A stretch of 64,000 bases of DNA from Acidobacteriota bacterium (GTDB taxonomy: Bacteria; Acidobacteriota; Terriglobia; 20CM-2-55-15): assembly GCA_022821145.1 (NCBI GenBank), contig JAJEEE010000047.1, positions 1 to 64,000 of the forward strand, written 5' to 3'. A model generated the notes under the pieces. That model had not been told where the DNA came from, did no database searches, and was given only the letters and a program-made list of their open reading frames with translations. Below, one piece after another: positions 32,315 to 62,914 of the stretch. The first letter of the stretch is position 1. Each line of letters opens with the position of its first letter. Position numbers and translations under genes: made by a program.

Positions 32315-33025
32315 ATGTTACACACGCGGACGCGCTCCCACATCACGTTTCTGACCGCGCCCGTGCTGGAGGCCATACCGGGCGTGGTGCACGCGTTCTC
32401 GACCCGGCGCCCGGACCCGGATGACGGCTTCGCCGCCGTCGCGGGCATGGACGGGTGGCCGGCGGTGCGGCTCCGGCAGATCCACTCCGACCGGGTGCAC
32501 TGGGTGGCCGGGGGCCGGCTCCCGGACGCGCCGCTGGAAGGAGACGCGGCCGGAACCGCGCTTCCGGGCGTCGCCCTCGGCGTGAGAACGGCCGACTGCG
32601 TGCCCGTGCTGATCGCGGATCGCGCGGGAACCGTCGTGGCCGCCGCCCACGCCGGCTGGCGCGGAACCGCGGCCGGAGTGGTTCGCCGGACCGTCGATCG
32701 GATGGCCTCCGAATGGGGTGTGGCCGCCGCCGACCTCGCCGCGGCCGTCGGGCCGCACATCGGCGTCTGTTGCATGGAAGTCGGCGAAGATGTCGTGGAT
32801 CGATTCGACCAACCCGAAGTCTTCGTGCGGCGTTCCGAGTGGCCCAGGCCACATCTCGACCTCGCCGCGGCCAATCGCGCCCAACTCGTGGCGGCCGGCG
32901 TGCCAGCGGATCGCGTCGAGGTCTCGACGCTGTGCACCCGGTGCCGCCCCGACCTGTTCCATTCCTACCGCCGCGACGGCAAGGGCGCGGGCCGCATGCT
33001 GTCCCTCATCGGCCGGGCGCCGTGA
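32315..33025 (+). CDS. pgeF: YfiH/PgeF multicopper-like purine phosphorylase/polyphenol oxidase
   Basis: 236 residues. The family binds zinc; motifs are RQIHSDRVHW, VRTADCVPVLIAD (Cys ligand), AAAHAGWRGTAAG (His ligand) and GPHIGVCCMEVGEDV. Known members act as purine nucleoside phosphorylase/adenosine deaminase or in peptidoglycan editing. ATG at 32315 is the natural start before the conserved domain. GTG of pcm overlaps the stop. Confidence 0.9.
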   Translation: MLHTRTRSHITFLTAPVLEAIPGVVHAFSTRRPDPDDGFAAVAGMDGWPAVRLRQIHSDRVHWVAGGRLPDAPLEGDAAGTALPGVALGVRTADCVPVLIADRAGTVVAAAHAGWRGTAAGVVRRTVDRMASEWGVAAADLAAAVGPHIGVCCMEVGEDVVDRFDQPEVFVRRSEWPRPHLDLAAANRAQLVAAGVPADRVEVSTLCTRCRPDLFHSYRRDGKGAGRMLSLIGRAP

Positions 33026-33687
33026 CGGGAGCGGCCCGGCGGCCGGAACGCGAGGCCATGGTGGCGCGCCAGATCCGATCGCGCGGGGTCCGTAACGCGG
33101 CCGTGCTGACGGCTCTCCTCCGGATTCCACGGCACGAGTTCGTCCCCGAGGACGCCCGGCCCGACGCCTACGCCGACTCGCCCCTGCCGATCGGCGACGG
33201 CCAGACCATCTCGCAGCCGTACGTCGTCGCCCGGATGACGGAAATGCTCGATGCGCGGCCCGGCCGCCGCATCCTGGAAGTCGGAACCGGATCCGGCTAC
33301 CAGACCGCCGTCCTGGCCGAGCTTGGCGGCGAGGTGTATTCGATCGAGGCCCGGGAGCCGCTGCTCGACACGGCGCGGGCGACCCTGGAACGGCTCGGCT
33401 ACGACCGCGTCCGGTTCCGGCACGGGGATGGCGCGGCGGGGTGGCCCGAATTCGCCCCGTTCGAGGGCATCATCGTCACGGCGTGCGCGAGTGAAGTACC
33501 GGGCGCGCTCGCCGGCCAGTTGGCGGCCCCGGGCCGGATGGTCGTCCCCATCGGAGTGGCCGGTGGCGAGCAGCGGCTCGTGACCGTGACGCGGAACGCG
33601 AACGGGGAAATGGACATCGCCGAAGGTCTTCCGGTACGATTCGTCATGATGACCGCATGGAAAGGGGGCAGCGAATCGAACCGATGA
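33022..33687 (+). CDS. pcm: Protein-L-isoaspartate O-methyltransferase
   Basis: 221 residues. It methylates isoaspartyl residues with SAM, starting their repair. Signatures are AYADSPLPIGDGQTISQPYVVA (substrate region), RILEVGTGSGYQTAVLAE (SAM motif I) and the conserved ITEP-like C-terminal strands. GTG start overlaps pgeF by 4 nt. Its TGA overlaps the ATG of the selenoprotein gene (ATGA). Confidence 0.93.
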   Translation: MTGAARRPEREAMVARQIRSRGVRNAAVLTALLRIPRHEFVPEDARPDAYADSPLPIGDGQTISQPYVVARMTEMLDARPGRRILEVGTGSGYQTAVLAELGGEVYSIEAREPLLDTARATLERLGYDRVRFRHGDGAAGWPEFAPFEGIIVTACASEVPGALAGQLAAPGRMVVPIGVAGGEQRLVTVTRNANGEMDIAEGLPVRFVMMTAWKGGSESNR

Positions 33688-34196
33688 AATCGACGAGTAA
33701 CCTCTTGACGGCGGCGCTCGTGGCGACGGTCTGGCCGGCCATGGCCCAGGACGCGCCGCCCGCGCCGAATATCTCCGGTATGGCCGTGCAGGGCATGATG
33801 TTCGACCTGAACAATTTCAGGGGCGACAAGAACGTCCTGGTCGTGTTCTACCGGATGCACAACTGACCGTTCTGTCAGGCGCAGCTCGGCGAGCTGCAAG
33901 CGAGCTACGAAGAGATACGGAACCTGGACGCGGAAGTCGTCGCCCTGAGCGCGGACATCCCGGCCCAGGCCACGGTGACCGCCTCGGAGCTGGGGGTCAC
34001 CTATCCGATCCTGTCCGATTCGCCGCGCCGGTTCATCCGCGACTACGGGGTCCTGCATCCGCAGGAAGGGATCGCGCGGCCGTCGCTGTTCATCCTGAAC
34101 CGCGACGGGGGCCTGGAATGGAGCTATATCGGGGTGAACGCATCGGATCGGCCTCCGATCGACACCGTTCTGGACGAACTCCGGGCCCTGCAGTAG
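33684..34196 (+). CDS. Thioredoxin-fold peroxiredoxin-like selenoprotein (UxxC)
   Basis: 170 residues when the in-frame TGA at 33864-33866 is read as selenocysteine. A signal peptide (KSTSNLLTAALVATVWPAMA) makes it exported. The active site reads FYRMHN-U-PFC, where AhpC/TSA-type relatives have FYRxxWCPFC. The rest continues in the same frame as a normal thioredoxin fold: AQLGELQASYEEI, TYPILSDSPRRFIRDYGV, ARPSLFILNRDG (cis-Pro region). A perfect 7-bp hairpin GCAGCTC-GGC-GAGCTGC (33881-33897) follows. ATGA overlap with pcm sets the start. A plain nonsense mutation would not preserve the long downstream frame. Confidence 0.85.
33864..33866 (+). other. Selenocysteine UGA codon 61
   Basis: TGA in frame between AAC and CCG-TTC-TGT, giving Asn-Sec-Pro-Phe-Cys. 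Downstream frame stays open for 110 codons. Confidence 0.8.
33881..33897 (+). promoter_or_regulatory. Candidate bacterial SECIS hairpin
   Basis: Seven perfect base pairs with the apical loop GGC, whose first base lies 22 nt after the UGA. Known bacterial SECIS elements lie about 16-37 nt downstream with a G among the first two loop bases; both rules are met. Confidence 0.7.
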
Positions 34197-34259: not shown

Positions 34260-34670
34260 ATGGGTGGTCGCAATCCCTACTTCGACGAGTTGGAGGGCAT
34301 CGAAGCTCCGACTCGAAAGTACACCGTCACGTTCCTGCCGATGAACGTCACCGTCGAGGTCGACCCGGACGCGTTGCCGTACGGCGAAACGGGGTTGCCC
34401 GGAAGCCTTCTCGACATCGCGCTGAAGCACGGCGTCGACGTGGACCATGCGTGCGGCGGCGTCTGCGCCTGCTCCACCTGCCACTGCATCGTCGAGACGG
34501 GCGAAGAGACCGTTTCCGAAATGAGCGACGGCGAAGAGGACCAGCTCTCCTACGCGCCCGGTCTCACTCCGTCGAGCCGCTTGGCATGCCAGTCCGTGGC
34601 CAACGGATCGTCGGACCTGGTCGTCACCATTCCGGACTGGAACCGGAACGCCGTCCGGGAATCCCACTGA
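34260..34670 (+). CDS. [2Fe-2S] ferredoxin, ISC type
   Basis: 136 residues. DHACGGVCACSTCHCIVETGEE carries three cluster cysteines (C-x5-C-x2-C) and RLACQ the fourth, the pattern of adrenodoxin/Fdx-type ferredoxins of the ISC pathway. The N-terminal ~20 residues and the tail after VVTIPDWN are slightly longer than in E. coli Fdx. No isc genes lie nearby. The start has a -10-like TACCAT 7 nt upstream. Confidence 0.9.
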   Translation: MGGRNPYFDELEGIEAPTRKYTVTFLPMNVTVEVDPDALPYGETGLPGSLLDIALKHGVDVDHACGGVCACSTCHCIVETGEETVSEMSDGEEDQLSYAPGLTPSSRLACQSVANGSSDLVVTIPDWNRNAVRESH

Positions 34671-62434: not shown

Positions 62435-62914
62435 TCAGTCGTCGAGTTTCTTCAATTCCTCGAACAGCACGGAATTCTTGGGCTGGTCGCCGATCTCGTG
62501 CACGTCGACATAGCGGATCACGCCCTGCTTGTCGACGATGAAGATCGCGCGCTCGGAAAATCCTTCCCGGCGCAGGACATTGTATTGAAGGGCCACGTGT
62601 CCGTGCGGAAAGAAATCGCTCAACAGCGGATAGGACAGTCCGCCGAGCGATTCCGCCCACGCCTTGTTGCTGAAGATCGAATCGATGCTGATGCCCATGA
62701 CCTGGGCATCGTACCGGTCGAACTCGGAGAGATCCTCCTCGTACGCCGGCATCTGCAGGGTTCAGACCGGAGTGAACGCAACGGGGTAGAAGGCGATGAC
62801 GACGTTCTTCTTCCCCTTGAAGCTGGACAGCGTGACTTCCGTGTCCAGGTGCGAGTTGAGCGTGAAGTCGGGCGCCGCGTCACCCACCTTGAGCTCGTTT
62901 GTCGGGTTCGGCAT
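62435..62914 (-). CDS. Selenocysteine peroxiredoxin
   Basis: 159 residues with TGA at 62764-62762 read as selenocysteine (residue 51). The sequence PNPTNELKVGDAAPDFTLN, then VVIAFYPVAFTPV-U-TLQMPAYEEDL shows a classic peroxiredoxin where TPVC holds the peroxidatic cysteine. The rest continues: GISIDSIFSNKAWAES, YPLLSDFFPHGHVA, RAIFIVDKQGVIRYV. Clostridial PrxU proteins have the same TxxU replacement. An AGAGGAGA site precedes ATG 62914. Co-transcribed with the GrdB-like gene. A -35-like TTGAGC and -10-like TATCCG are possible upstream. Confidence 0.9.
62726..62738 (-). promoter_or_regulatory. Candidate bacterial SECIS hairpin (peroxiredoxin gene)
   Basis: GGAG-GATCT-CTCC: four base pairs, which can be extended by tandem G-A pairs and one C-G. 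The loop starts 28 nt after the UGA with G first. Weaker than the other two hairpins. Confidence 0.5.
62762..62764 (-). other. Selenocysteine UGA codon 51
   Basis: TGA in frame in TPV-U-TLQ, at the peroxidatic cysteine position. Confidence 0.85.

Follow-up and report, generated by a model that had tools for sequence, protein, structure and literature searches.

Our data strongly support the existence of a selenoprotein gene in an acidobacterial genome. The UGA at position 33864 is almost certainly read as selenocysteine (Sec) by means of a downstream hairpin, and the product is a redoxin built on a peroxiredoxin (Prx) scaffold. The computed evidence comprises the conservation of the frame, the Sec machinery of the genome, the SECIS features downstream of the UGA and the fold. 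"The window" denotes the whole stretch of 64,000 nucleotides that was analysed, and all coordinates without a contig name refer to it.

Results

The recoded frame

The features discussed here are located as follows.

33022-33687, + strand: upstream ORF, which we take from family knowledge to be pcm (L-isoaspartate methyltransferase), with GTG 33022 as candidate start
33684-34196, + strand: selenoredoxin gene (AhpC/TSA fold, UPFC motif), 170 residues, ATG to TAG, from Pfam, the AlphaFold2 model and orthologues
33684-33749, + strand: probable N-terminal signal peptide (MKSTSNLLTAALVATVWPAMA-QD), read from the sequence
33864-33866, + strand: UGA as selenocysteine Sec61, first residue of UPFC, from conservation and Sec machinery
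33873-33875, + strand: Cys64 (TGT), predicted partner of Sec61, invariant in 8 orthologues
33881-33897, + strand: upper hairpin of the bacterial SECIS, GCAGCUC-GGC-GAGCUGC, from position, synonymous freezing, covariation and published criteria
34260-34670, + strand: downstream neighbour ending at TGA, presumably a [2Fe-2S] ferredoxin, named from family knowledge

The frame 33684-34196 (+) contains exactly one in-frame stop, the TGA at codon 61 of 170, in the translated context ...VVFYRMHN-U-PFCQAQLGEL.... The first-pass annotation had placed this single TGA where relatives have CxxC, and indeed UPFC (residues 61-64) aligns with the CGPC of a Cys redoxin from the same genome. Its count of 110 open codons after the TGA needs a small correction: the frame is open, with 109 sense codons followed by TAG. 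Its view that the fold continues past the TGA is borne out by the Pfam AhpC-TSA model, which the read-through frame matches across the TGA over residues 26-146 with 90.1 bits (cut-off 26), placing the redoxin within the AhpC/TSA family. GC3 of the frame is 0.92 upstream of the TGA and 0.85 downstream. A hydrophobic N-terminus is common to all eight redoxin orthologues, and judged by its sequence the redoxin probably carries a Sec-type signal peptide, i.e. is extracytoplasmic.

Fold and active site

The AlphaFold2 model of the redoxin (pTM 0.71, mean pLDDT 73.6, residues 1-25 low) places residue 61 directly before the first long helix. Its closest solved folds are AhpE, a 1-Cys peroxiredoxin of M. 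tuberculosis (1xvw/4x0x/5id2), and Bcp4 (3hjp), with Z about 21-22 and rmsd 1.8-1.9 over 146 residues. A sequence alignment with AhpE pairs Sec61 with the Thr of TxxC and Cys64 with the peroxidatic Cys; Pro133, in the cis-Pro position, aligns with the catalytic Arg of peroxiredoxins. AhpE thus combines TxxC with Arg, whereas the window redoxin combines UxxC with Pro. The classical peroxiredoxin signature (PxxxT/SxxC plus catalytic Arg) is missing: the redoxin reads RMHNUPFC, with Sec at the Thr position and Pro133 at that of Arg. In an alignment of six TGA redoxins and two Cys homologues, UxxC/CxxC always goes with Pro and TxxU/TxxC always with Arg, a pairing that separates predicted thioredoxin-like from predicted peroxiredoxin-like active sites.

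Because the UxxC motif is accompanied by Pro133 where true peroxiredoxins have Arg, the alignment favours a putative Prx-like thiol:disulfide oxidoreductase over a classical peroxidase. That the selenoprotein is mainly a peroxidase is possible although rather unlikely; AhpE and Bcp4 are themselves peroxiredoxins, but the positions of Sec61 and Pro133 oppose this assignment, and the active site they form resembles that of thioredoxin/ResA. Thiol:disulfide oxidoreductases of the ResA/TlpA type, which are exported, share the CxxC-like motif and the cis-Pro position with the redoxin. Unlike them, the redoxin is nearer to peroxiredoxins in sequence and has its first Cys replaced by Sec.

Conservation of the TGA and the genetic code

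The same TGA is found in all eight orthologues of the GTDB family (the window gene and seven others, 51-94% identity). In a congeneric genome (contig JAJEDW010000200.1 of an Acidobacteria MAG) the gene is 94% identical and has the same TGA, and the six further orthologues of this family, whose aligned parts are 51-59% identical, keep it. One TGA at this site also occurs in eight remoter relatives from other parts of the phylum. Compared with the congeneric gene, Ka/Ks is 0.23 upstream of the TGA and 0.09 downstream, where the sequence is thus under purifying selection.

The source genome (4.18 Mb, 99.3% complete, an 89-contig draft) was searched family by family, and selA, selB, selC and selD were all found above curated cut-offs. 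A tRNA-Sec(UCA) lies on contig C21 (75.1 bits, cut-off 47), where ARAGORN concurs with tRNA-SeC(tca), and the genome encodes SelA (545 bits), SelB (380 bits) and SelD (360 bits). The first-pass annotation had made its reading of the TGA as selenocysteine depend on the genome not lacking all Sec machinery; with tRNA-Sec, SelA, SelB and SelD in place, the TGA conserved in 8/8 orthologues and the SECIS features described below, that reading is supported. Within the window itself no Rfam match reached the gathering threshold and ARAGORN reported no tRNA.

Under table 11 the frame ends at the TGA, and automatic annotation would tend to label the gene truncated or a pseudogene. A true nonsense mutation, leaving a pseudogene or a 60-residue fragment, is nevertheless extremely improbable, given the identical TGA in every orthologue, the Ka/Ks of 0.09 over strongly conserved downstream residues and the Sec machinery of the genome. 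No more credible is a reassignment of UGA (e.g. to Cys or Trp) for which no SECIS would be needed. In-frame TGAs do occur in several genes of the genome; the code, however, is not reassigned, because UGA terminates pcm and the adjoining ferredoxin in the window as well as three orthologues of the redoxin (L048, L052 and L053), which contain UGA inside the gene and again as their own stop. The view of the first-pass annotation that most neighbouring genes use UGA as a normal stop is thereby upheld. Furthermore, the genome has 16 AhpC/TSA matches, 10 of which are free of TGA, and when the 64 kb were scanned for frame composition, two in-frame TGAs were convincing, both of them in redoxins. Of six candidates in the window that passed on composition, the other four were rejected by eye as wrong frames or boundaries between genes. 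That the TGA is an error for TGC/TGT made in sequencing or assembly is conceivable in a draft, but this explanation is the least probable and practically negligible, because seven other, independent assemblies carry the same TGA, and five further redoxins of the same genome have a TGA at a redox-active position.

The predicted SECIS hairpin

A 7-bp hairpin with loop GGC had been noted 22 nt downstream of the TGA, and our folding recovers it at 33881-33897 with the loop at 33888-33890 and an energy of -10.1 kcal/mol; the spacing from UGA to loop is 21 nt, the loop beginning at nt 22. The bacterial SECIS model specifies an apical loop of 3-9 nt with a G in its first two positions, an upper stem of 4-16 bp, an energy of at most -7.5 kcal/mol and 16-37 nt from UGA to apical loop (PMC13188914). 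With its GGC loop, 7 bp, -10.1 kcal/mol and 21 nt, the hairpin agrees with the model on all four counts.

Against shuffles, the region folds with an energy that is ordinary for its composition (z -0.19). An unremarkable total folding energy is expected in GC-rich coding DNA. When synonymous codons of the window gene were shuffled, 2% of the shuffled sequences attained the energy of the hairpin, a result that taken alone is suggestive. The case for the hairpin rests on its position, on frozen synonymous sites and on covariation. Across the eight orthologues the degenerate stem codons are invariant in 4/4 cases versus 2/50 elsewhere (Fisher P = 4.7e-5), the comparison set being the 50 other degenerate codons with invariant amino acid, 48 of which vary; the sole silent change inside the hairpin lies in the loop. 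Among 15 redoxins, selected on the presence of a hairpin at this distance (a choice that itself favours pairing), 99% of cells are paired, 4/7 pairs have changed on both sides and the covariation score is 0.386, versus at most 0.06 for slid controls. The stem is invariant among the close orthologues, and the covariation comes only from the more distant redoxins.

From these results we infer the following course for Sec insertion, export and catalysis. SelB carrying Sec-tRNA(UCA) would bind the hairpin some 21 nt downstream of UGA 33864, and the ribosome would then insert selenocysteine there rather than stop. The resulting 170-residue redoxin on its peroxiredoxin scaffold would probably work outside the cytoplasm. 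Sec61 would act as the nucleophile and Cys64 would resolve it, giving a Se-S bond; this selenenylsulfide would be reopened by a reductant. Its likely role would be to reduce oxidised protein thiols and perhaps peroxides as well.

Gene neighbourhood

The TGA stop of pcm overlaps the ATG of the redoxin (ATGA, 33684-33687), and the first-pass annotation had linked the two genes. This tie is weak: pcm adjoins the redoxin in 3/8 orthologous loci (the window, the congener and L051), and pcm was dropped as a functional partner since the adjacency is not conserved. A [2Fe-2S] ferredoxin follows the redoxin in 6/8 of these loci and yfiH/pgeF is near it in 7/8.

Other recoded redoxins in the genome

Each of the remaining 6 AhpC/TSA matches (16 in all) carries exactly one TGA. 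Three of them form a UxxC set (UPFC of the window gene, UPNC on contig C22 and UPYC on C70) and three a TxxU set (TPVU in the window, TGGU on C61 and TPGU on C21). The idea that all six TGAs stand at the peroxidatic Cys was dropped: in the alignment the three of the UxxC set occupy the first CxxC position, and the three of the TxxU set that of the peroxidatic Cys.

The TPVU gene is a putative second selenoprotein in the window (62444-62887, - strand; TGA 62764-62762), an AhpC/TSA peroxiredoxin with FTPVUT. The RNA downstream of its TGA folds with -23.2 kcal/mol (z -1.91) and a weak apical stem. The UPYC redoxin (L029, G000:C70:102421-102888) has a SECIS stem identical to the hairpin stem of the UPFC gene, and its longer frame runs into a second domain which by eye is DsbD N-terminal-like. 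A Bcp/PrxQ-type peroxiredoxin with DTPGUT (L025, G000:C21:29853-30233) shares its contig with the tRNA-Sec gene, at a distance of about 6 kb. The other two are a recoded redoxin with FTGGUT and a probable signal peptide (L033, G000:C61:173594-173965) and one with WUPNC (L028, G000:C22:8579-8968).

Discussion

Prx-like selenoproteins of the UxxC type entered the literature in 2005 (PMC1088965) and again in 2006 (PMC1794560), and the redoxin therefore belongs to a known kind, being a further member of a family known since then; a 2026 review lists such proteins as predicted with high confidence (PMC13188914). With the Prx-like thiol:disulfide oxidoreductase selenoproteins (PF00578, UxxC/UxxU; PMC1088965, PMC1794560, PMC13188914) it shares the AhpC/TSA fold, UxxC in place of TxxU, a downstream SECIS and a bacterial host. 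Unlike the named members, the window subgroup has HNUPFC (UGFC in sister genera) and scores above no NCBIfam cut-off, the window redoxin has a probable signal peptide, and its acidobacterial host encodes a heme-copper oxidase. The best NCBIfam match is the SelL-related redox protein (NF040769), which has the same Prx-like scaffold; since this closest model, with 54.4 bits, stays below its curated cut-off of 120, no named NCBIfam model covers the redoxin. No relatives were found among the viral contigs searched, and plasmid relatives are remote (<32% identity among the matches listed).

SelA scores above cut-off in 217 of 299 sampled genomes of the class, and many genomes of the class have TGA redoxins. 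Among the matches listed, selA accompanies a TGA redoxin in 86 of 88 class genomes (hand count); the two genomes without selA are 77-81% complete. In several class genomes two TGA redoxin genes are direct neighbours in a stretch of about 1 kb (G012:C11:198-1158, L069; G062:C66:2930-3918; G099:C33:38276-39262, L074; G083:C93:79209-80225), which suggests tandem seleno-redoxin gene pairs.

Published surveys list few selenoproteins for this group, namely 4 for Acidobacteria (PMC1794560) and 3 in one acidobacterial genome (PMC12013277), and a literature search covering mostly papers outside subscription turned up no study devoted to acidobacterial selenoproteins. Sec use in Acidobacteriota, a common phylum, thus looks under-reported. 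Because the source genome encodes a heme-copper oxidase, selenium chemistry here probably coexists with oxygen; moderate interest attaches to the breadth of Sec redoxins across the class and to their occurrence in such a genome. According to a review, aerobic bacteria rarely retain selenoproteins (PMC13188914). We see about even chances that much of the class, oxygen-respiring members included, has a selenium-dependent redox defence made up of a wide range of seleno-redoxins, in part TxxU+Arg peroxidases and in part UxxC+Pro thiol:disulfide oxidoreductases, several of which are exported. If true, such a class-wide defence would contradict the view that aerobes rarely keep selenoproteins.
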